Source of the DNA: Euzebyales bacterium
GTDB lineage: Bacteria > Actinomycetota > Nitriliruptoria > Euzebyales > JAHELV01
Direction of reading: 5' to 3'
NCBI GenBank assembly: GCA_035461305.1
Contig: DATHVN010000182.1
Coordinates: 1-34,816, forward strand
DNA length: 34,816 nt
Shown: in pieces, positions 22,807-34,816 of the stretch
Layout: each line of letters opens with the position of its first letter
Numbering within the stretch: the stretch's first letter is position 1
Position numbers and translations under genes: made by a program
Notes under the pieces: generated by a model
Seen by the model: only the letters and a program-made list of their open reading frames with translations
What the model was told of the DNA's origin: nothing
The model's database searches: none

Positions 22807-22994
22807 GGACTCGCCTCCGGCGGCTGGGATGTCCCAGATGGTAGCGGGCGTGTCGGATGTTCGGTGGCCGCGTGTCGGTGCCCGACGACCGCACGGCAGC
22901 CGGTCGGCGCGAACGGCCGATCGCGGCGCCCGGGCTCCGAGAGGCCCGCGACGTGCCGCGGGCTGGCTGGTCGGGCGATTCGCGGATTGCCTAC

Positions 22995-23040
22995 GCATGT
23001 GCGAGGCTCTGGCCCCCGGTGGTGTTGTCCCTGCACATGC
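22995..23040. promoter_or_regulatory. Inverted repeat in the aminotransferase/conservon divergent region
   Basis: GCATGTGC 22995-23002 and GCACATGC 23033-23040 are exact inverted copies 30 bases apart in the 330-base region between the two divergent genes. This could be an operator. I see no other gene in 22807-23124. Confidence 0.35.
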
Positions 23041-23136
23041 CGGCGAGCGCCAGGCACGACGACGATGCCTTCCGGAGGGGTGCACCATCATCGACCTCGC
23101 CGTGGGCACGGCGTCGATCGCAACGTGAGTGGACGT

Positions 23137-26100
23137 ATGGCGCGCAGACCAGCCAGCTCGACCAGAGACCGCAGCCGGCCGACGGCGCGGGGACGGTCCA
23201 CGCCGGCCCGGCAGTCGTTGCAGAGCCGGATCCTGTCACGCGTGCTCGTGATCTCGATCGCGCCGATGCTGTTCATCGGCATGATCGCGCTGGTCAGCCT
23301 GGTCGGGTTGTCGCGGTCGGCGGAGCAGGACGTCGCGGCCAGCCGCGAGGAGCTCAGGCAGGACGTCGTCGGACCGGCGGTCCGGAGGGACGCCGCCGGC
23401 GTCGCGCGCGAGGTGGAGCGACTGCTGGCCGAGCGGGTCGCCGACGTCGTCGAACTGTCCGTGTCGCCACTGCTGGTGTCCGCCGCAGGGGAGGCAGCGA
23501 CGGATGTCGGCGACGCCCTGGTCGCGACGCCGATCACCGAGCTCGAGCAGCAGTACGCCGGCTCACGACGGTTGGCGGGGGGCTCGGACGCCGAGCGGCA
23601 CCTCCGCGCGATCGCGAAGCGCCAGGCGGTGTTCCGGCAGCTGCTGTTCACGGAGCGCAACGGCTTCACGGTCGGCTCGTCGTCGAATCCGGAGCACCTC
23701 AGCAACAGCGGGGAGCCATGGTGGTCGACCGCGTGGGACGACGGGTTCTTCATCGGCCCCGTCGAGCGACTCGGCACGGACGCCTACGGCCTGACGGTTG
23801 CGGCCCGCATCGGTGAGCAGGGGACCGACGAGCACGCCGGGGTCGTGAAGGCGATCATCAACGTGCGGGTGCTGCAGCGGACCACGGACCGGATCGCCCG
23901 GGACAGCGGCTCTGACGTGACGCTGCTGACCGGGGAGGGCGAGCTGCTGGCCGAGACCGTCTCCGACCACGACGCCTCACGGCTGTTGAACCCCGAGATC
24001 GAGCTGGACGCCGAGCGCGCGGAGACCGTCGAGCGTGCTCTCGGTAGCAATGAACCGGGCGTGGCGCTGACCGAGAGCTCCGTCGCCGGCTTCGCACCGG
24101 TGTCGACGGTCGACGGCCGTCTGCGGCGCCTGCTCCAGCGCTTCGACAACCTCGACCAGGACCCGATCTCGTGGATCGCTGTCGTGGAGCGGCCCATCGA
24201 CGCGGCCTTCGCGCCCCTGGCCAGGCTGTCGGACGTGTCGGACGGCCTCAGCGCGACCGCGCGCACGTTCGCGATCATCGTCGTCGTCGCCCTCCTGCTC
24301 TCGCTGATCGCCGCGTTCCTCGTGTCGACCCGCCTGGCCCAGCGCATCGTCGGACCGCTCCGGTCGCTCGGCGCGACCGCACGCAACATCGCCGACCACC
24401 AGCTGCCGGTGCTCGTGCACCGTGCGCAGAGGCCAGGCGCTGGCCGCGACACCGACCTGCCCGTGCTCCCCGCGGTCGAGCTGCGCACCAACGACGAGAT
24501 CGAGGACGTCGCCGACGCGTTCAACATCGTCAGCAGCACCGCTGCCGACCTCGCCGCCGACCAGGCACGGAGCCGCCGGAACGTCGCCCGCATGTTCGTC
24601 AGCCTCGGTCGTCGCAACCAGAACCTGCTGAGCCGTCAGCTCGAGTTCATCGACCGGCTCGAGCGCGACACCTCCGACCCCGACCTGCTAGACGACCTGT
24701 TCCGCCTCGACCACCTCGCGACACGGATGCGGCGCAACGCCGAGAGCCTGCTGGTGCTCGCCGGCGAGGAGCCCGCACGCCGGTGGTCGGAGCCGGTCTC
24801 GTTGACCTCCGTGGTGCGGGGTGCGATCTCCGAGGTCGAGGACTACCGGCGCGTCACCCTCGACGGCGTCGACGAGGCGCAACTCGCCGGCGCCGCGGTC
24901 GCCGACGTCACGCACCTGCTGGCCGAGCTCATCGAGAACGCCACGCAGTTCTCGCCGCCCGACACACCGGTCGACGTCGTCGGCCGACGGGTCGTCGACG
25001 GCTACGCGCTGGCCGTCGTCGACGACGGCGTCGGCATGAGCGTGGAGCAGCTCGAGGACGCGAACCGGCGGATCGACGCATCGCCGATGGTCGATCGGGT
25101 GCCCTCCAGCTTCCTCGGCCTGTTCGTGGTCGGTCGCCTCGCCGCCCGGCACCGCATCCGCGTGCGGCTGGGCGAGTCGACGACCGAGGGTGTGACGGCA
25201 AAGGTGCTGCTGCCGACGGCGCTGATCGACCCGCCGGTGCCGACGGGCGTGGCCGGGAACCGCGGGCCGGCGCTCGAGGCCGGTGCGCTGCCCGACGACG
25301 CTGCCGAGGGTGCGGCAGCGCACGACGTGACCGCCGCGGAGTCCGACGCCGACGGCGTCGGGATCGACGTGGCCGATGACACCGCGACCGAGCGGACGCA
25401 CGTCTCGGCGTCGGTGGTGCGCGAGCGCCGCCCGGCGTTCGACCAGACCGCGCCGCCCATCCCCGGACGTGGTGGCCGCACGTGGTCGTCGGAGGAGCGG
25501 ACGTCGTCCCGTGCGCCGTTCGACCATATCGAGATGCGCGGGCTGACCGACGACGAGGTCGACCTGCGGGACGCGGAGACTGAGCCCGACGTCGGACCCG
25601 CCGAGTCCGACGACCGGTCATCTACCGTTGACGAGCACGGTCCTGATGACGGAGCGGCGGCGGGACCGCCCGACGAGGCCGTCGACCTGGGCCTTGATCT
25701 GCGGGAGCCGTCCGAGGTGCGCGACGATCGACCCGACACGGCGACGCAGGAGCCGGGCGAGCCGTGGTCGGGTGACCGCGCGTTCGACGATCTGGCGTAC
25801 ACCGGAGAAGCGCGCTACCCACCGGTCGGCGACAGCGCCCCAACGGACGTCGAGGTCGCCGAGGACGCGTTCGGAGCGGAGCCGGTGGCCGGAAGCGCGA
25901 TCGGAGCGGATCGAGCGGAGGTCGGGGACGTGGTGGCGGGGGACGTGGTTGCCGAGCCCGTGGCGAGGGATCGGGCCGCAGCGACCGACGGTCCCGGGGA
26001 CCTCGAGACCGAGGTCGTGTCCGACGAGCCCGACGACGTCGAGACGGCGGGCGAGCCGGTCACCACGGACCGGCGCGATCAGCCGACGGCGGACGACGTC

Positions 26101-26706
26101 GGTGCGTGGTGGACCGGTGATCTCGGCCCGCATGAACCGGCCGAGGGGTCGCTGGACGACATCTGGGCGCCGCACGACACCACGGTGTTCCCCGCCGATG
26201 ACCGGCCAGCGCCTGGCGCAACCGACGGCACCCCGGCGCCCGGTGGGACCGAGGACACGCGGCCGCCTGCCGCGACCGATGACGATCCGCTGATCGAGCC
26301 GGCTCCGCTCGACGACGATCCGCTGGTCGAGCCGGCTCCGCTCGACGACGATCGACCAGCGGCCGTGACGGAGGCGGAGGACGACCCGCGCGACGCCGCA
26401 CCTGTCCTCGAGGTACGTCGGCGGGCCTCGCGGCGGGAAGGCGCCGCCGGCGGCCCTGCCAACGGCCGGGCGCTGCTGCGCACGGAACGAACACCGGCCG
26501 CAGATGACGCGGCGCCGTCGGAGCCTTCGCCCTCTCGGGCGACGACGAACGCCGAGGTGACCGACGAGCATGGTGTCACGCTCACGGCCGCCGAGCACGA
26601 GGCGCGGGCCACACGGGACCGCCTGTCGCGCTTCCAGCGCGCGGTGCAGGAGGGTCGATCACAGACACGGAGTCGGCACAACGGGGGAGAGCATCACGAT
26701 GCGTAA
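23137..26706 (+). CDS. cvnA: Conservon CvnA: dCache sensor with HAMP, kinase-like ATPase and long acidic tail
   Basis: About 1189 residues from ATG 23137 (GTG 23125 is an alternative; neither has a strong site). Helix 1 lies at about 32-58 and helix 2 at about 378-400, enclosing a 320-residue extracytoplasmic region with dCache-like sequence (TERNGFTVGSSS, GEPWWSTAWDDGFFIGPV). HAMP follows, then VARMFVSLGRRNQNLLSRQ, FRLDHLATRMRRNAESLLVL, the N-box ELIENATQFSPPDTPV (about 597) and DDGVGMS (about 629). From about 700 to the end is a low-complexity Asp/Glu/Pro/Ala tail including two 33-bp repeats. It heads the four-gene conservon, overlapping cvnB by 8 bases. Such proteins relay a membrane signal to the roadblock/GTPase pair. 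Confidence 0.9.
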   Translation: MARRPASSTRDRSRPTARGRSTPARQSLQSRILSRVLVISIAPMLFIGMIALVSLVGLSRSAEQDVAASREELRQDVVGPAVRRDAAGVAREVERLLAERVADVVELSVSPLLVSAAGEAATDVGDALVATPITELEQQYAGSRRLAGGSDAERHLRAIAKRQAVFRQLLFTERNGFTVGSSSNPEHLSNSGEPWWSTAWDDGFFIGPVERLGTDAYGLTVAARIGEQGTDEHAGVVKAIINVRVLQRTTDRIARDSGSDVTLLTGEGELLAETVSDHDASRLLNPEIELDAERAETVERALGSNEPGVALTESSVAGFAPVSTVDGRLRRLLQRFDNLDQDPISWIAVVERPIDAAFAPLARLSDVSDGLSATARTFAIIVVVALLLSLIAAFLVSTRLAQRIVGPLRSLGATARNIADHQLPVLVHRAQRPGAGRDTDLPVLPAVELRTNDEIEDVADAFNIVSSTAADLAADQARSRRNVARMFVSLGRRNQNLLSRQLEFIDRLERDTSDPDLLDDLFRLDHLATRMRRNAESLLVLAGEEPARRWSEPVSLTSVVRGAISEVEDYRRVTLDGVDEAQLAGAAVADVTHLLAELIENATQFSPPDTPVDVVGRRVVDGYALAVVDDGVGMSVEQLEDANRRIDASPMVDRVPSSFLGLFVVGRLAARHRIRVRLGESTTEGVTAKVLLPTALIDPPVPTGVAGNRGPALEAGALPDDAAEGAAAHDVTAAESDADGVGIDVADDTATERTHVSASVVRERRPAFDQTAPPIPGRGGRTWSSEERTSSRAPFDHIEMRGLTDDEVDLRDAETEPDVGPAESDDRSSTVDEHGPDDGAAAGPPDEAVDLGLDLREPSEVRDDRPDTATQEPGEPWSGDRAFDDLAYTGEARYPPVGDSAPTDVEVAEDAFGAEPVAGSAIGADRAEVGDVVAGDVVAEPVARDRAAATDGPGDLETEVVSDEPDDVETAGEPVTTDRRDQPTADDVGAWWTGDLGPHEPAEGSLDDIWAPHDTTVFPADDRPAPGATDGTPAPGGTEDTRPPAATDDDPLIEPAPLDDDPLVEPAPLDDDRPAAVTEAEDDPRDAAPVLEVRRRASRREGAAGGPANGRALLRTERTPAADDAAPSEPSPSRATTNAEVTDEHGVTLTAAEHEARATRDRLSRFQRAVQEGRSQTRSRHNGGEHHDA
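26281..26346 (+). repeat. Two 33-bp tandem repeats inside the cvnA tail
   Basis: GACGATCCGCTGATCGAGCC at 26281 and GACGATCCGCTGGTCGAGCC at 26314 begin two 33-bp units differing at one base, encoding DDPLIEPAPLD and DDPLVEPAPLD. A third start (GACGAT) follows. Indicates recent in-frame expansion of the disordered tail. Confidence 0.85.
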
Positions 26707-27121
26707 GCTGAGTGGCAGCGCACGCAACTTCAACTGGTTGCTGTCAAACTTCGTCCGCGACGTCGCCGGGGTGCGCGAGGCGATCGCTGTCAGCTCGGAC
26801 GGGTTTCTGCTCGCCGGATCGGCGGGAAGGGAACGGGACGGCGTCGAGCAGTTCGCGGCGATCGTGTCCGGCCTGACCAGCCTGACCAATGGCGCCGGGA
26901 GCCTGCTGGACTGCGGCGACGTCGATCAGGTGATCGTCGAGATGCGCGAGGGCGTGCTGTTCATCTCGTCGATCAGCGACGGCAGCACCCTCGCGGTCCT
27001 CGCCGACAAGGACTGCGACATGGGCCTGGTCGGCTACGAGATGACGTTGCTCCTCGACCGGGTCGGCACGACGCTGACGCCCGCGCTCATCAGCGAGCTG
27101 AAGAACGCGCTCACCGTATGA
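26699..27121 (+). CDS. cvnB: Conservon CvnB: roadblock/LC7 domain protein
   Basis: 140 residues from ATG 26699, which overlaps the cvnA stop by 8 bases, with GGGGGAG upstream. Roadblock/LC7 pattern: NFNWLLSNFVRDVAGVREAI, AVSSDGFLLAGS, EQFAAIVSGLTSLT and VIVEMREGVLFISSISDGST. These small alpha/beta proteins act as MglB-like partners and GTPase-activating proteins for the small GTPase, here CvnD two genes downstream. Its stop overlaps cvnC as ATGA. Confidence 0.95.
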   Translation: MRKLSGSARNFNWLLSNFVRDVAGVREAIAVSSDGFLLAGSAGRERDGVEQFAAIVSGLTSLTNGAGSLLDCGDVDQVIVEMREGVLFISSISDGSTLAVLADKDCDMGLVGYEMTLLLDRVGTTLTPALISELKNALTV

Positions 27122-27471
27122 ACGGCCGTCCGCACGCCGAGGACCACGGGCGCCTCGTGCCGCCCTACATCGTGACTGGCGGACGCACCCGCTCGTCGGC
27201 TGACGACCTCGCGTTGGAGACCCTGGTGACGACGACAGCGGAGGGCATCGCGGGCGCCGACCGCCACGTGTTCGAGCAGCGGCGCATCCTCATGACCTGC
27301 CGCGACCCGATGTCGATCGCAGAGGTCGCCGCCGAGCTCGAGGTGCCGGCCGGCGTCGCCCGCGTGCTGATCGGTGACCTGGTGTCCGATGGCCTGCTGC
27401 GCGTCACCGGACCGACCGATATGAACGAACAGCTCATCAGGAGGCTGATCGATGCCGTCCGCTCCCTCTGA
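27118..27471 (+). CDS. cvnC: Conservon CvnC: DUF742 protein
   Basis: 117 residues. DUF742 is recognised by RLVPPYIVTGGRTRSS near the N-terminus and by the winged-helix-like C-terminal half (MSIAEVAAELEVPAGVARVL, GDLVSDGLLRV). Translationally coupled to cvnB (ATGA) and overlapping cvnD by 20 bases. DUF742 proteins interact with the other conservon members; a DNA-binding role is suggested by the helix-turn-helix-like region but not established. Confidence 0.95.
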   Translation: MNGRPHAEDHGRLVPPYIVTGGRTRSSADDLALETLVTTTAEGIAGADRHVFEQRRILMTCRDPMSIAEVAAELEVPAGVARVLIGDLVSDGLLRVTGPTDMNEQLIRRLIDAVRSL

Positions 27472-28093
27472 GGGTCCCGCATCGGCCACGCAGCCGAAGT
27501 CGGTCAAGATCATCGTGTCCGGCGGCTTCGGCGTCGGCAAGACCACGTTCGTGGGGGCGGTGTCGGAGATCGTCCCGTTGCGGACCGAGGCCGCCATGAC
27601 ATCCGCCAGCGTCGACATCGACGACGCCGCGTGGCTGCCCGACAAGACGACGACCACGGTCGCGATGGACTTCGGTCGGATCACCTTCGACGACGCGTTG
27701 CGCCTGTACCTGTTCGGAACACCGGGGCAGGACCGGTTCGGGTTCATGTGGGACGACCTGGTGCGGGGCGCGCTCGGGGCGGTCGTGCTCGTCGACACGC
27801 GCCGGCTCGACCACTGCTACACCTCGATCGACTACTACGAGTCGCGTGACATCCCGTTCGTCGTCGCGGTCAATCAGTTCGACGACGCGCCTGTCCATCA
27901 CCGCGACGACATCCGGTACGCGCTGAACGTCGGCGACGACGTGCCGATGCTGCGCTGCGACGCCCGCGACCGCGAGTCTGTCAAGGAGGTGCTGGTCGCC
28001 CTGCTCGAGACCGTCCTGCTCGCCGTGCAGCGGCAGCGGGCCGAGGGGAACGACGTCAACAGCCAGGCCTCGGTCGCCGCGGCACAGGGCTGA
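27452..28093 (+). CDS. cvnD: Conservon CvnD: small GTPase
   Basis: 213 residues from ATG 27452 inside the end of cvnC. G1 P-loop GGFGVGKTT at residues 24-32, G3 FGTPGQDRF, and G4 NQFD (specificity toward guanine) are all present; the MTSASVDIDD and TTTTVAMDFG segments fill the switch region. It is the molecular switch of the conservon, analogous to MglA with CvnB as MglB. The C-terminal tail (EGNDVNSQASVAAAQG) is not lipidated. No cytochrome P450 (cvnE) follows; instead the next gene converges from the other strand with a 9-base gap. Confidence 0.95.
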   Translation: MPSAPSEGPASATQPKSVKIIVSGGFGVGKTTFVGAVSEIVPLRTEAAMTSASVDIDDAAWLPDKTTTTVAMDFGRITFDDALRLYLFGTPGQDRFGFMWDDLVRGALGAVVLVDTRRLDHCYTSIDYYESRDIPFVVAVNQFDDAPVHHRDDIRYALNVGDDVPMLRCDARDRESVKEVLVALLETVLLAVQRQRAEGNDVNSQASVAAAQG

Positions 28094-29676: not shown

Positions 29677-30054
29677 CTACCAGTGCAGCACAGCGTCGGC
29701 CGTGCGCAGCAGCTCGGACTGCTCCGCGGCGTCGGCGATGGTGACGCCGGAGATGAGCGCGTCGGCGTCGAGGCCCTGGTGGGCGGCGCTCACGGCGTCG
29801 ACGTAGACGAGGACGCCGGACTCGAGGAGGCCCCGCAGATCGCGCGCACACCGGGCGTTGGGCAGCGGCACGCCGGCGAGGCGCGCCTCCGGCACGGCGC
29901 CGCTCGCCGCCGCGTACTCGATCGCGACGCCGCGGAGCAGCACCGTCAGATCGACGTCCTCCGCGACGGCGTAGACGTTGGCCTCGAGCACCGGATCGTG
30001 GGGCGACATCGCGGCCGGCGCCGCGGTCAGGATGCTCACGACACGACGCGCCAC
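29677..30054 (-). CDS. DsrF/TusC-like protein with the usual cysteine replaced by Asp
   Basis: 125 residues from GTG 30054, chosen for GGAGGAGG six bases upstream; it overlaps the previous gene by 19 bases. The fold pattern follows DsrF/TusC: VVSILTAAP at the start, EDVDLTVLLRGVAIEYA, LLESGVLVYVDAVSAAHQGL and a C-terminal AELL-like helix ending TADAVLHW. In typical family members the VYV segment is followed by Cys; here residue 86 is Asp. The only cysteine is Cys69 (NARCARDL), elsewhere in the fold. It is the last of three consecutive DsrE-superfamily genes. Sulfur carriage at the normal position is therefore impossible. Confidence 0.75.
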   Translation of the reverse strand: MARRVVSILTAAPAAMSPHDPVLEANVYAVAEDVDLTVLLRGVAIEYAAASGAVPEARLAGVPLPNARCARDLRGLLESGVLVYVDAVSAAHQGLDADALISGVTIADAAEQSELLRTADAVLHW

Positions 30055-30395
30055 GGCTGACCTCCTCCCGGTGCGAGCACCACGTCGGCCTCCCGCACGA
30101 AACGCCACAGGTCCGCGTCGTCACCCGCGACCACGCCGTCGACCATGCGGCGTCCTCCAGCGGCCCCTGCCTCGACGACCCAGTCGAGCGTGGCACCGTG
30201 CACACCGCGGTGCAGCAGGGCGCGAACGGCGTCCGCGATGGGGCCGGAATCCAGCGCCAGGTCGACCGCAGTGCCGTGGGCGAACACCATGACCCGGTGC
30301 TCCGCCGCCAGGAGCCGGTCTGCCAGCTGCAGGGCGGTCGCCGCGGCCGACGAGCTGGTCGCCGACGACAGCACCACGGTGACGGCGCGGCTCAC
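30036..30395 (-). CDS. DsrE/TusD-like protein lacking cysteine
   Basis: 119 residues from GTG 30395, which overlaps the previous stop as GTGA; GTG 30398 and 30401 are also in frame. The DsrE pattern is visible: VTVVLSSATSSSAAATALQL, ADRLLAAEHRVMVFAHGTAV, LHRGVHGATLDWVVEAGAAG, then an acidic loop and READVVLAPGGG. In DsrE/TusD the strand after the third helix carries the persulfide-forming Cys (near residue 78); here that stretch is DWVVEAGAAG and the whole protein contains no cysteine. Middle gene of the three-gene set, overlapping both neighbours. Confidence 0.72.
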   Translation of the reverse strand: MSRAVTVVLSSATSSSAAATALQLADRLLAAEHRVMVFAHGTAVDLALDSGPIADAVRALLHRGVHGATLDWVVEAGAAGGRRMVDGVVAGDDADLWRFVREADVVLAPGGGQPWRVVS

Positions 30396-30697
30396 CACCA
30401 CTGCGCCCGCGTCTCGGGGTCGCCAAGCAGCGTGACGACGGCATCCAGATCGACCAGCTCCACACCCACGGCTCGTGGCTCGACGGCGCGCTCGGTCACA
30501 GCGTCGGTGTGTGCCCAGATCCGCACACCTGCGTCGCGGGCCGCCGCGAGGTCGTCGGCCGCGTCGTGGGTGGGCCGGAGGACCGTGGTGGCGGCGTCAA
30601 GCAGCACGATGGTCACGTCCGCACCTGCCGTGGCCCACCCGGTACCCAGCGCGAGCGCCTCCTCCGGTTGTTGCGACGTCAACAGCGCATGGGTCAT
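30392..30697 (-). CDS. DsrH/TusB-like protein lacking cysteine
   Basis: 101 residues from ATG 30697 (GGGAGG nine bases upstream). Short Rossmann-like pattern: HALLTSQQPEEALAL, ADVTIVLLDAATTVL, ARDAGVRIWAHTDAV and VELVDLDAVVTLL, ending in tandem tryptophans (QWW), a terminus reminiscent of DsrH/TusB. No cysteine anywhere. First of three overlapping DsrE-superfamily genes and 31 bases after the wHTH-TusA regulator. Assignment to DsrH rather than DsrE rests on size, order and C-terminus and is the least certain of the three. Confidence 0.65.
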   Translation of the reverse strand: MTHALLTSQQPEEALALGTGWATAGADVTIVLLDAATTVLRPTHDAADDLAAARDAGVRIWAHTDAVTERAVEPRAVGVELVDLDAVVTLLGDPETRAQWW

Positions 30698-30728
30698 GGT
30701 GCGTGCCCTCCCGCCACACGACACGAGA

Positions 30729-31796
30729 TCATGTCCGCCCCTTGCGGATGAGCAGCCGGATCGCCGGCCGTCCCTGGTCGTCGGTCGCGCGCTCGACCCC
30801 GATGAGCTCGTGGCCGGCGCGGTCGGCCCACCGTGCGAACGCGGCCGGGGAGCCCGGTCCGCCGGCCAGCACCTCCAGCACCGCGCCCGGGTCGAGCGCG
30901 GTGATCGCTCGCATGGCACGGACAACGCCGGTCTCGCGGGGTGCGCCGCGCGCATCGACGCGCCCACCCACCGTGACCAGCAGGCGGTTGCTCGCCGGCC
31001 CTGCCGGGGCGGGACGCACAGCCCAGCCTGGCGCTCGGTCGCCGTCGACGTCGGCGACCGGCGCAAGCTGCACCGGCCGCCACACGCGCGCGAAGGCACC
31101 CGTCAGCAACCCCCACTCCAGCGCGGCCGCCAGCCCACCCCGTACCGGACGGAGCGGGTCGATCAAGCCGCCCAGCCGGCTGAGCAGCGCCTCGCCGTCG
31201 TCGGCCTGGTGCACCTCGACGAGGTAGCCCTCGGACCGCAGGATCCTGCCGACGACGGCGGCCGCCTCCGGCAGCGACCCGCACGGCTCGTCGCTGCGGT
31301 CGGCCAGCCGGTTGCCCTCGCGGGCGGCCGCCTGGCGGACGACCTCAAGCCGCCCCCCGGTCTGCGGACCGTTGCCGTTGCCGCTGACGATCACCTCGCC
31401 CAGCAGGCGAAGCAGCGTCGTGGGTCCCTGGGTGGGTCGGACGATCGGGTCGACACGGATCTCGTCGGCACCGATCTCGGCACGTGCCAGGTAGACCTTC
31501 GCCGGACGCCCGCCGCCCGGGTGCTTGCGGCTGCTGACAACGACCAGCCCCGCGTCGGCGAGGGTCTCCAGGTGCGTCCGTGCCACGTTGGGGTGCAGAT
31601 CGAACGCCCCGGCGATGTCACGCACCGTCTGGCCCTCCCCGACGTGGCGCAGGTGCTCGTAGATGCTCGCCCGTGTGGTGCTGCGCAGCGCCCGCCGAGT
31701 GCTGACGTCCGCAGTGCGACGGACCCAGCGCTCGGACGGCGCGCCTGCGCCCGGGCCGTCGTCAGCCATGGCCGGGGGCGCGGCGGAGCACCGCAT
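30729..31796 (-). CDS. Winged-helix regulator fused to a cysteine-less TusA-like domain
   Basis: 355 residues from ATG 31796 (ATG 31769 is possible; no ribosome site at either). Residues about 35-105 are an ArsR-like winged helix: TTRASIYEHLRHVGEGQTVR, DIAGAFDLHPNVARTHLETL, with wing GGGRPAKVYLA. A middle region (about 115-275) of unknown fold includes SDEPCGSLPEAA. Residues 279-355 read as a TusA/SirA domain (VDARGAPRETGVVRAMRAI, DPGAVLEVLAGGPGSPAAF, RWADRAGHELIGVE, IRLLIRKG), but the CPxP motif that carries the sulfur is absent. It directly precedes three DsrE-superfamily genes, so it probably controls them, perhaps sensing a sulfur-relay state. Confidence 0.8.
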   Translation of the reverse strand: MRCSAAPPAMADDGPGAGAPSERWVRRTADVSTRRALRSTTRASIYEHLRHVGEGQTVRDIAGAFDLHPNVARTHLETLADAGLVVVSSRKHPGGGRPAKVYLARAEIGADEIRVDPIVRPTQGPTTLLRLLGEVIVSGNGNGPQTGGRLEVVRQAAAREGNRLADRSDEPCGSLPEAAAVVGRILRSEGYLVEVHQADDGEALLSRLGGLIDPLRPVRGGLAAALEWGLLTGAFARVWRPVQLAPVADVDGDRAPGWAVRPAPAGPASNRLLVTVGGRVDARGAPRETGVVRAMRAITALDPGAVLEVLAGGPGSPAAFARWADRAGHELIGVERATDDQGRPAIRLLIRKGRT

Positions 31797-31839: not shown

Positions 31840-31925
31840 GACCAACATAGCCCCGTTTCTACCGTATTGATCGCCAGATCAGCCTGGCGGGCGCTCGGTC
31901 CGGTAAATATGCACGGTAAACACTA
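31840..31925. promoter_or_regulatory. AT-richer control region upstream of the wHTH-TusA gene
   Basis: The 161-base gap 31797-31957 holds a local AT-rich patch. CGGTAAA occurs at 31901-31907 and 31914-31920 (13-bp spacing), and CCGTTTCTACCG at 31853-31864 gives CGGTAGA on the other strand. TATGTT (minus strand, 31849-31844) could be the -10 box. These may be autoregulatory sites. Confidence 0.4.
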
Positions 31926-31957: not shown

Positions 31958-33001
31958 TCAGGCCATCACCAGCTGCGCCCACAACAACGCCAGGGGCACA
32001 CCCAACAGCACGGCGTCGGCGGTGCCGATCAGCAGGGCCGGGACCGCCTCGCCGGTCGCCTCGGACGCCGTGCCCGCACGACGGAGGACCTGGCGGAACC
32101 GCGCGCTGGCCAGCGCGGCGACGACCGCCGCGAGCGCGAAGCCGACGATCAGCACCACCGGTGGGGGCGCGACGTCGCTGGCCGCGTATACGACGAGGCC
32201 AGACGGCAGTGCGGTTGCGACGGCGGCGACTACCAGGTAGCGCTTGCGGTGGCGTACCGTCGGGCGACTCGCGACGACGACGGCTGCGTCGGTCAGCGCG
32301 ATCATCGCCAGCGCACTGGCCACCAGGACCGGGTCGAGCTGATCGTGCAGGGCGACCAGGGTCGCGGCGCCGACGGCGACAAGCAGACCGGCAAACAGCG
32401 TCGACCCCACGACCGCCGCCGTTTCGTGTCGTCGTGGCGACGCGAACGCCAGGAGGAAGCTGGTCATCACCGCGAGTGCGAGGACGCCGCCCACCCACCG
32501 GCGCCCGGTGTCGGGCGCGATGAGCAGCAGCGTCGGAGGTCCGGCACCCATCACCAGCGCGGTCGGTAGCAGGGTGCGGACACTGGCCACTCCGAGTGTG
32601 GCGTGGAGGTCGATCAGGCTGCCGACGGCCACCACGACGACGACCAGGCCGAACGCCCACCGGCTCGAGAAGACGCCCACGAGCAACAGCAGCGGGACCA
32701 GCAGCGACCCGGCGAGCAGCAGCCGGTAGACGCGCTGCTGACGCAGCGTGGCGGTCGATCCACCGCTGAACGGCGGCAGGAGGGCGAGCTCGGCGCCGTC
32801 GGCCGCCAGGTTGGCCTCGTCGAGCGCCACGCGCCGGCCGTCGAGCATGCCCGACGCCACCGTCACGCGCGTCGCGAAGGGCTCGCCGAAGCGGTCGCAG
32901 AGGTCAGCGACGATCGCCGGCACCGTGTCGGGTGCGACCTCGACCTGCGCGGTGCCGGCCGCGTCACGCAACGCGGCGAACAACCGCACCGTGACCGCCA
33001 C
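31958..33001 (-). CDS. MoaD/ThiS-like ubiquitin-fold domain fused to a polytopic membrane domain
   Basis: 347 residues from GTG 33001 (AAAGG about six bases upstream; the frame extends further but without a site). Residues 1-81 are a MoaD-like beta-grasp: VTVRLFAALRDAAGTAQVEV, CDRFGEPFATRV, VALDEANLAADGAELALLPP, ending FSGG at 78-81. MoaD/ThiS normally end at this Gly-Gly so that the terminus can be adenylated and thiocarboxylated; here the chain continues and contains about nine hydrophobic helices to the C-terminus. The membrane part resembles no transporter I can name; a phosphatidate cytidylyltransferase-like label lacks its signature. It diverges from glnR and lies upstream of the DsrE-like cluster. 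Confidence 0.8.
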   Translation of the reverse strand: MAVTVRLFAALRDAAGTAQVEVAPDTVPAIVADLCDRFGEPFATRVTVASGMLDGRRVALDEANLAADGAELALLPPFSGGSTATLRQQRVYRLLLAGSLLVPLLLLVGVFSSRWAFGLVVVVVAVGSLIDLHATLGVASVRTLLPTALVMGAGPPTLLLIAPDTGRRWVGGVLALAVMTSFLLAFASPRRHETAAVVGSTLFAGLLVAVGAATLVALHDQLDPVLVASALAMIALTDAAVVVASRPTVRHRKRYLVVAAVATALPSGLVVYAASDVAPPPVVLIVGFALAAVVAALASARFRQVLRRAGTASEATGEAVPALLIGTADAVLLGVPLALLWAQLVMA

Positions 33002-33142
33002 AGACCGCCTTTCGCCCGTTGCTGCCCAGTGTGCCCAGCCCTCACTCGTCCTCGTCGTCCCACGCGCAGCGTAGCCCGTGCCGGCGGTCATTGGCCGCGT
33101 CGGCGGTGGCGGCCCGACTGGTGCTACCGTTCAGCACAGCTT

Positions 33143-33160
33143 CGTGGAGCCGCTTCCACG
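33143..33160 (+). promoter_or_regulatory. Hairpin in the glnR leader
   Basis: CGTGGA-gccgct-TCCACG is a 6-bp stem with a 6-base loop, 69 bases before the glnR GTG. TACCGT at 33125-33130 fits a TANNNT -10 box upstream of it, so the hairpin would be in the 5' UTR. Confidence 0.35.
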
Positions 33161-33228
33161 GAGCACACGGTGGGTGGACACCGCCGGACGGGCGGCGCCG
33201 TGTGAGGCTCTCGACACAGGGACGGCCG

Positions 33229-33909
33229 GTGAGGTTGCTGATCCTCTCCGACGGTGACAGCGCGAAAACGCTGTTACCGGCCTTGGAGTTCCTCGACCAC
33301 AGCGTGGCCGTGGCGCCACTGCACCCGCGCGAGGCGCCCGACGCGCACGAGGCCGACCTGGTGGTGATCGACGCGACCGACGACCTGGGTGCGGCGTCGA
33401 GCACGTGCCGGTCGATCGTCGCCTCCGATCGGTCGCGTCCCGTGCTGGTCGTCGTCGACGAGGGCGGGCTGGCGGCCATCAAGAGCACGTGGGGCTTCGA
33501 CGACTGGCTGCTGCCACGTGCCCGGCCTGCAGAGCTCGAGACGCGGCTGCGGCTGCTGGCCGAGAACGCCCGCAACACGCGCAGCTCGCGGGCACGCATC
33601 GGCGACCTGTCGATCGACGAGGAGACCTACGTCGTGCGGCTGCGCGGCAAGCCGCTCGACCTGACCTTCCGCGAGTTCGAGCTGCTGAAGTACCTCGCGA
33701 ACAACCCGGGCCGGGTCTTCACGAGGTCACAGCTGCTGCAGGAGGTGTGGGGCTACGACTACTTCGGTGGCACCCGCACCGTCGACGTCCACATCCGGCG
33801 CCTGCGTGCCAAGCTCGGGACCGAGCACGAGCAGTTGATCGGCACCGTCCGCGGGGTCGGGTACAAGCTTGATCCGGCCGGCTCGAGCTCATCGGGCGAG
33901 ACGCCCTGA
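33229..33909 (+). CDS. glnR: GlnR-type OmpR-family response regulator, global nitrogen regulator
   Basis: 226 residues from GTG 33229 (CAGGGA about six bases upstream), the start that aligns with known GlnR proteins; GTG 33202 is also in frame. The N-terminal domain is an atypical receiver (LLILSDGDSAKTLLPALEFL, ADLVVIDATDD, VLVVVDEGGLAAIKSTWGFD) without the usual acidic triad. The C-terminal winged helix is highly conserved: LDLTFREFELLKYLANNPGR, FTRSQLLQEVWGYDYFGGTR, TVDVHIRRLRAKLG, GTVRGVGYKL. GlnR activates ammonium assimilation and nitrate/urea genes under nitrogen limitation in actinobacteria. No partner kinase adjoins, as usual. The mshD neighbour supports orthology. Confidence 0.93.
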   Translation: MRLLILSDGDSAKTLLPALEFLDHSVAVAPLHPREAPDAHEADLVVIDATDDLGAASSTCRSIVASDRSRPVLVVVDEGGLAAIKSTWGFDDWLLPRARPAELETRLRLLAENARNTRSSRARIGDLSIDEETYVVRLRGKPLDLTFREFELLKYLANNPGRVFTRSQLLQEVWGYDYFGGTRTVDVHIRRLRAKLGTEHEQLIGTVRGVGYKLDPAGSSSSGETP

Positions 33910-33940: not shown

Positions 33941-34816
33941 TCAGAACGCCGGCCGGCGCAGGTCGGCAGCCGGGCCATCGATCGACGGCGCGATCCAGCG
34001 TTCGTAGCAGACGTCACGGTACGCGTGCTGGAACTGTTCCGACTCGTAGAGGCGGACGGCGTTGGTGCTCGCGCAGTCGACGTAGAGGATCGCCTGACGG
34101 CAGCCTCGTTGGTACAGGTGGTGCACTCCGGCCTGGAGCAGGCTCCTTCCCAGACCGAGGCCCTGGGCGCGCGGGTGGACGGCGAGCACGTAGACCTCAC
34201 CGACGGGTTCGTGCGCCGGATGCTCGTCGGATTCGTGGCCGTGCCACTTGGTCCAGTGGAAGCCCAGCAGCTCGTCACCGCGCCAGGTCATCAGCAGGTC
34301 GTCGGGCCGGAACCAGTCGAGCGCACGCCGCTCGGCGAAGTCGTCTGCATCCCACCCCCCGTTCTCGGGGTGGCCGGCGAACGCGGCGTTGTTGACCTCC
34401 AGGAACGCCTCGTCATCCTGCTCGCCCTGGTACGTGCGCAGTTCGACGCCTTCTGGGAGCTTCGTCTGCTCTGGCGGTGCGGTCAGGCGCCGTGTCATGA
34501 ACGCCAGTTCGCGCTGGATGTCGAAGCCCAACTCGTAGGCGAGCGTCTGGTCGGCGCGCTCGACGCGATGGACCCACAGGTACAGCAGGCCCCCACCGGC
34601 GCGGCCGACCGCCGCGGTGGTCTCATCGAGGAGTGCGGTGGCGACCTCGCCGCTCTGGCGGTGGTTGGGGTGCACCACCACCTCGACCGCGACGCGCGGC
34701 CGATCGCCGGGCCGGCCCCAGCGCATGTGCGCATAGCCGATCAGTTGGCCCCGCTCGTGCGCCAGGACGCCGAGCCAGCCGGTCGCGCCCACCTTGAGGT
34801 GGGAGTACTTGTGCTC
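33941..34816 (-). CDS. mshD: Mycothiol synthase (mycothiol acetyltransferase), N-terminus beyond window
   Basis: The frame is open to the window edge, giving 291 residues of the usual 300 or so; the true start is outside. Two GNAT domains are visible: an N-terminal one (LGVLAHERGQLIGYAHMRWG, VVHPNHRQSGEVATALLDET) and a C-terminal one (FLEVNNAAFAGHPENGGWDA, MTWRGDELLGFHWTKWH, GEVYVLAVHPRAQGLGLGRS, LYVDCASTNAVRLYESEQF). This double-GNAT plan with HPENGGW is characteristic of MshD, which acetylates Cys-GlcN-Ins with acetyl-CoA in the last step of mycothiol synthesis. The convergent glnR-mshD pair also occurs in mycobacteria. It shows the organism makes mycothiol. Confidence 0.95.
   Translation of the reverse strand, partial: EHKYSHLKVGATGWLGVLAHERGQLIGYAHMRWGRPGDRPRVAVEVVVHPNHRQSGEVATALLDETTAAVGRAGGGLLYLWVHRVERADQTLAYELGFDIQRELAFMTRRLTAPPEQTKLPEGVELRTYQGEQDDEAFLEVNNAAFAGHPENGGWDADDFAERRALDWFRPDDLLMTWRGDELLGFHWTKWHGHESDEHPAHEPVGEVYVLAVHPRAQGLGLGRSLLQAGVHHLYQRGCRQAILYVDCASTNAVRLYESEQFQHAYRDVCYERWIAPSIDGPAADLRRPAF

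Follow-up and report, generated by a model that had tools for sequence, protein, structure and literature searches.

Four consecutive genes on the minus strand, between positions 31796 and 29677 of the window (the whole stretch of 34,816 nucleotides that was analyzed, a 34.8 kb contig from a Euzebyales genome of 72% GC), encode a regulator, REG, and three proteins, H, E and F, of the DsrE fold. The operon is built on the DsrEFH/TusBCD scaffold, but judged from its sequence it would not function as a sulfurtransferase of that kind, because Cys78 of DsrE/TusD, regarded as the defining residue of such complexes, was sought in E and an acidic residue was found in its place. A preliminary description of this DNA had proposed that the set was repurposed. 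This is well supported by a replacement that is clade-wide, by the retained fold, order and overlap of the genes and by purifying selection, although two of the four losses first listed do not stand; the specific mechanism is only moderately supported. Our leading reading, which we hold tentatively, is that a former sulfur relay now serves as an interaction or ligand switch for REG, in which both the complex and its signal are predicted. The genes are as follows.

30729..31796, minus strand: REG, with an ArsR/SufR-type winged helix-turn-helix (wHTH), a SufR-like middle and a C-terminal TusA-like domain
30392..30697, minus strand: H, DsrH/TusB-like, 101 aa, no Cys
30036..30395, minus strand: E, DsrE/TusD-like, 119 aa, no Cys
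29677..30054, minus strand: F, DsrF/TusC-like, 125 aa, one non-conserved Cys (NARCARD), Asp86 after VYV

Overlapping DsrH-, DsrE- and DsrF-like genes had been placed on the minus strand here, and the gene calls and the Pfam and profile matches agree. E and H overlap by 4 nt and F and E by 19 nt; in most cases across the named loci, adjoining genes of the operon share 1 or 4 nt. Against the Pfam DsrE cut-off of 22.7 bits, H scored 22.7 (at the cut-off), E 22.4 (just under it) and F 25.0. Phmmer searches of the PDB with the single window proteins gave nothing useful, so family profiles were needed: that of H matched A. vinosum DsrH (2hy5_C) at 2.9e-4, and that of F matched MTH1491 at 8e-4 and DsrF at 0.045. 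Since the E profile matched DsrE (2hy5_A) at only 0.09, a structure model of E was made (AF2; pLDDT 90, pTM 0.85), and Foldseek matched it to YchN, DsrH, a putative DsrE, MTH1491, DsrF and TusBCD chains (prob 0.99-1.00), giving the DsrE fold that had been expected. In a tree of 35 sequences, unrooted and with several long branches, E, F and H resolved as separate groups, and E fell within a DsrE/TusD clade (support 95/94) beside five sequences, all Cys-bearing (E. coli TusD, a DsrE encoded in the same genome and one sequence each or more from further genomes in the phylum, three in total). The Pfam scores, the profile matches, the modeled fold of E and the tree all point to three tandem DsrE-fold subunits.

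It was observed that Glu75 of E (window 30173-30171) occupies the position of the persulfide Cys78 of DsrE/TusD, the DsrE segment 'LDMVVCVAAAQRRG' being paired by HMMER with 'LDWVVDAAAARALG' of the E family. When MAFFT was used to add E. coli TusD to the aligned E family, the Cys region was misplaced; that alignment was discarded, and HMMER with DsrE and hhalign with a Cys-bearing trio described below (L113) were used instead. The Cys78 column holds Asp or Glu in 27/27 members of the class, within the motif W-[VILM]-[VTA]-[DE] (27/27), the Trp of which is invariant. The absence of Cys from E was borne out and takes the form of a position-specific replacement. Because Cys78 is replaced, H-E-F should not carry persulfide.

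The other two subunits contribute less to this argument. H does lack Cys, as had been described, but this is no real loss, since E. coli TusB also has none; the H of one relative (L058/L012) carries a Cys. Asp86 does follow VYV in F, but Asp is present at this position in A. vinosum DsrF as well (RIYVDRDSLEARG), Cys occurs there only in E. coli TusC, and F-family members differ in this residue, which rules out Asp86 as a lost Cys. The Cys of F also means that the trio is not Cys-less throughout, contrary to the preliminary description. Total absence of Cys was likewise ruled out as significant in itself: with Cys at a frequency of 0.9% in the window, the probability (P) that a protein as small as E or H has none is ~0.33-0.40. 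A coordinated loss of sulfur-bearing residues is upheld at the E and TusA positions and fails for the DsrH- and DsrF-like proteins (two of the four), and the Cys-loss argument is carried only by the E position, the TusA position and a SufR-type site in REG.

REG could be divided into three parts, all on the minus strand.

Residues ~29-104: ArsR/SufR-type wHTH (Pfam HTH_20, 36.1 bits, above cut-off)
Residues ~125-262 (window ~31422-31011): SufR-like middle without Cys ligands (weak TIGR02702 match and alignment)
Residues ~276-351: TusA-like domain (Pfam TusA, 33.9 bits, above cut-off)

The AF2 model of REG was moderate (pLDDT 78, pTM 0.45), and its domain arrangement is uncertain. Foldseek matched its N terminus to ArsR (6j05) and its C terminus to TusA (3lvj_C, TMt 0.73), the latter confirming the TusA fold anticipated earlier. 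Long, low-TM matches of the full-length model to methyltransferases headed the list and were ignored. The model also matched TRAPPC3 and BcsD (prob 1.00, TMt ~0.5), and on this basis the SufR-type middle region may possibly adopt a V4R/TRAPP-like fold.

REG has two Cys, and REtG stands at the CPxP position of its TusA-like domain. CPxP was replaced by [RYH]-[EDQ]-x-[GA] in 38/38 regulators aligned, so that the reported lack of CPxP extends to the family. A normal TusA that has CPRP is encoded in the same genome (C36), as is a DsrE bearing CCGTC (C60). In the middle region, which the preliminary description had not mentioned as a sulfur-related site, five SufR-like relatives, one of them from the same genome, carry the cysteines of a CPF...C pattern, which match the part of SufR in which Fe-S ligands have been described (PMC11995493; positions 171, 175, 188 and 216 in C. 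glutamicum); 0/9 REG proteins compared do. TIGR02702 (SufR) matched REG residues 41-200 weakly, far under its cut-off. REG thus resembles the SufR-type regulators (M. tuberculosis Rv1460, C. glutamicum SufR) in its ArsR-like wHTH and alignable C-terminal region, but differs in lacking Cys of the Fe-S type, in having a TusA domain and in its surroundings, with no suf genes among the flanking genes identified (MoaD-like, GlnR, GNAT, DUF4395, thioredoxin and YgfZ). As read from the alignments, three separate sulfur or cluster sites (E, TusA and SufR-type) appear to have been lost together, and no alternative conserved Cys was found in the aligned homologues of E, H, F or REG.

The sulfane-sulfur response of the repressors sHdrR and SoxR is based on Cys. 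These repressors (PMC12423496, PMC10451225) resemble REG in being of the ArsR type and in their tie to sulfur metabolism, but REG has no conserved Cys. No description of an HTH-TusA fusion or of a Cys-less DsrE set was found in the open-access literature searched.

We suggest the following mechanism. REG would be a SufR/ArsR-type wHTH repressor or activator, probably dimeric, in which the SufR-type Cys site is gone and a CPxP-free TusA domain has been added. H-E-F would form a TusB-TusD-TusC (DsrHEF) complex in which the essential Cys78 has become an invariant Asp/Glu, and would most likely dock the TusA-like domain of REG as DsrE docks genuine TusA. A signal would alter this docking and hence DNA binding by REG, which may also autoregulate the operon. 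A small metabolite or an ion bound where the active site used to be might provide this signal, and the acidic site there could offer a pocket for such a ligand or ion, or imitate a charged state; competition by genuine TusA or by desulfurase partners would be an alternative signal. An entire relay and a SufR-type regulator, both without their sulfur or cluster Cys, might then represent a non-catalytic sensing complex, comparable to a pseudokinase and bearing an acidic site where a persulfide would otherwise sit, a generalization that we put forward with some reservation. The search for an operator shared upstream of REG within the genus found only one short, uninterpretable box, ACGGTAGAAA (window ~31850-31866), kept in 4/4 genus genomes amid otherwise diverged DNA; it is a possible promoter or operator element.

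Formation of a complex between H-E-F and REG would mirror, by analogy, the known functional pairing of TusA with DsrEFH. In A. vinosum DsrEFH and E. coli TusBCD, sulfurtransferases of alpha2beta2gamma2 composition, there are likewise three tandem DsrE-fold subunits, corresponding one to one, and overlapping genes; E groups with DsrE/TusD, and in E. coli a regulator gene, yheO, lies directly upstream of tusDCB. The operon described here differs in lacking Cys78, in the invariant Asp/Glu, in the order H-E-F, in its TusA-fused regulator and in having no DsrC/TusE. DsrEFH type II of cable bacteria (PMC13293266) is also a short, divergent set clustered with a TusA domain, but it keeps Cys67 and transfers sulfur, whereas the present clade lacks the Cys and has its CPxP-free TusA fused to a wHTH. 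A cluster resembling type II was found in another family of the phylum (L119; G368:C121, ~85.7-87.5 kb), where a lipoyl-carrier-like gene accompanies TusA(CPYP)-H-F-E and E bears Cys.

The distribution of the genes was examined in the class (Nitriliruptoria) and beyond. REG matches were found in 25/30 genomes of the order and in 16 or more further class genomes; matches from beyond the class cover mainly the HTH and middle parts. The E profile was positive in 27/66 class genomes and had no match in 358 other genomes of the phylum (396 having been sampled from the phylum). A pattern scan for F across 84,980 species genomes, of limited sensitivity, gave 14 relatives, all assigned to the class from record titles or from context. 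Relatives of the operon occur in Euzebyaceae, Egibacteraceae, Nitriliruptoraceae and Nitriliruptorales metagenome-assembled genomes. The alignment of homologues proposed in the preliminary description places the Cys loss clade-wide, with no homologue in the same context retaining the Cys; its presence across 27 class genomes rules out a peculiarity of a single genome.

Several class genomes keep REG, with its Cys-less TusA domain, in the absence of the trio. The core of this domain (GxGxPAAFARWADRAGH) is near-invariant even though REG often stands without the trio, and the domain must therefore have a role that does not depend on it. Accordingly, REG might act without the trio altogether, its TusA-like domain docking on a cysteine desulfurase or other TusA partner, dimerizing or binding a ligand, and H-E-F might be a binding complex in its own right, Cys-free and linked to REG by no more than a common operon. 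We consider this a real possibility, though not the one we would choose. It fits the observation that DUF4395 (L061:6377-6859), thioredoxin-like and YgfZ/CAF17-like genes (L076:1962-2853, L076:116-1018) follow REG with or without the trio. Against it, every E found lay directly downstream of REG, with an identical REG-H-E-F order in 27/27 E-bearing class genomes, and TusA with DsrEFH is a functional pair that recurs as TusA-H-F-E in L119.

A switch formed by H-E-F and REG has also to be weighed against the persistence of sulfur chemistry, with H-E-F as a scaffold and the persulfide carried on the genuine TusA, the C60 DsrE or a DsrC. The genome does encode all three elsewhere, the DsrC gene lying at C163:67776, away from the operon and beside another DsrE-family gene, and the neighborhood of the operon is related to thiols and sulfur. 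However, PMC3397948 places the sulfur transferred in vitro, in A. vinosum and E. coli, only on Cys78 of DsrE/TusD, and describes Cys78 of TusD, citing Numata et al. 2006, as the sole essential Cys of TusBCD. In DsrEFH type II the active Cys of DsrE is conserved in 99.3% of sequences from 985 genomes, the exceptions without Cys being attributed to sequencing error, and persulfidation of DsrE by TusA depends strictly on this residue, a Cys67Ser DsrE exchanging no sulfur with TusA (PMC13293266). With the essential Cys changed to a charged residue across the clade and no other conserved Cys in E, H, F or REG, the scaffold alternative appears unlikely.

It may also be asked whether E ever had the Cys, or whether its lineage descends from a Cys-free DsrE-fold subunit such that nothing was lost. 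Neither DsrF nor DsrH subunits have the essential Cys, short proteins are being compared, and the unrooted tree leaves several forks open. The best evidence that the Cys was replaced in the E lineage comes from an additional H-E-F trio in G411, a genome of the same class (L113:6001-7159; G411:C12); the trio has no regulator and lies between unrelated metabolic genes. Its E reads LNWINCGLC, and in the hhalign alignment (prob 97.6) this Cys falls precisely at Glu75 of the window E; its F and H also match their window counterparts (hhalign; F prob 97.0). This trio has the gene order of the window operon and differs by the Cys at the Glu75 position and by having no REG beside it; among Cys-bearing relatives it stands closest to the window trio. 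Since E groups with DsrE/TusD rather than with F or H, and Cys occupies the aligned position in the nearest relatives of E, an always Cys-free lineage is quite improbable.

Among four genus genomes, dN/dS was 0.12-0.23 for E, 0.17-0.22 for REG, 0.21-0.35 for H and 0.26-0.34 for F, so that E is the most constrained member of the trio. As all values lie within 0.12-0.35, the genes are functional and not decaying; the notion that they are remnants of a sulfur relay that lost its active-site residues is effectively refuted by these data and by frames and overlaps that are intact, and an acidic replacement that is invariant, across the class. That a class keeps three subunits with an acidic residue together with a CPxP-free TusA regulator suggests that the scaffold can be selected without sulfur chemistry. 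This raises the questions of what DsrE-type complexes recognize besides persulfide and whether TusA-DsrE docking can be used as a switch, and such genes should not be annotated as sulfurtransferases.

Upstream of REG, three conserved neighbors were found.

31958..33091, minus strand: MoaD/ThiS-like domain and, from sequence only, a likely multi-helix membrane region
33127..33909, plus strand: GlnR-type response regulator (Pfam GlnR_1st, 114.4 bits; Trans_reg_C, 104.5 bits)
33941..34792, minus strand: GNAT acetyltransferase (Pfam Acetyltransf_1, 66.6 bits)

The first scored below the NCBIfam SAMP1/MoaD cut-off and just below that of ThiS (20.6 bits), and its family is present in 18/27 loci compared. 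The GNAT gene we take to be MshD-like by its position, following the glnR-mshD arrangement of Mycobacterium. Downstream, many relatives have genes for DUF4395, thioredoxin, a YgfZ/CAF17-like protein and AhpC/TSA or PAPS reductase. From the YgfZ, DUF4395, thioredoxin, AhpC and PAPS-reductase neighbors we infer a role for the operon in thiol or Fe-S homeostasis, a role also suggested by what is presumably a comparable glnR-mshD locus in Mycobacterium with thioredoxin, rhodanese and YgfZ genes.

A lone DsrE-family protein with TVCTPCA[ST]RRG was found near the operon in three genomes (L076:1429-1788, L055:4510-4869 and L056:3391-3750). On the plus strand of the window (22864-28093), a large gene and genes for a Roadblock/LC7 protein, a small protein and a GTPase stand in a row that resembles an actinobacterial conservon and whose place beside the operon is conserved within the genus (L051, L073). 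Elsewhere in the same genome (L114:8521-10073; L002 = G000:C163), genes for a pyridine-nucleotide-disulfide oxidoreductase, a DsrC-family protein and a DsrE-family protein adjoin one another; the oxidoreductase gave a weak sulfide-dehydrogenase match, and the group is a possible sulfide oxidation cluster.
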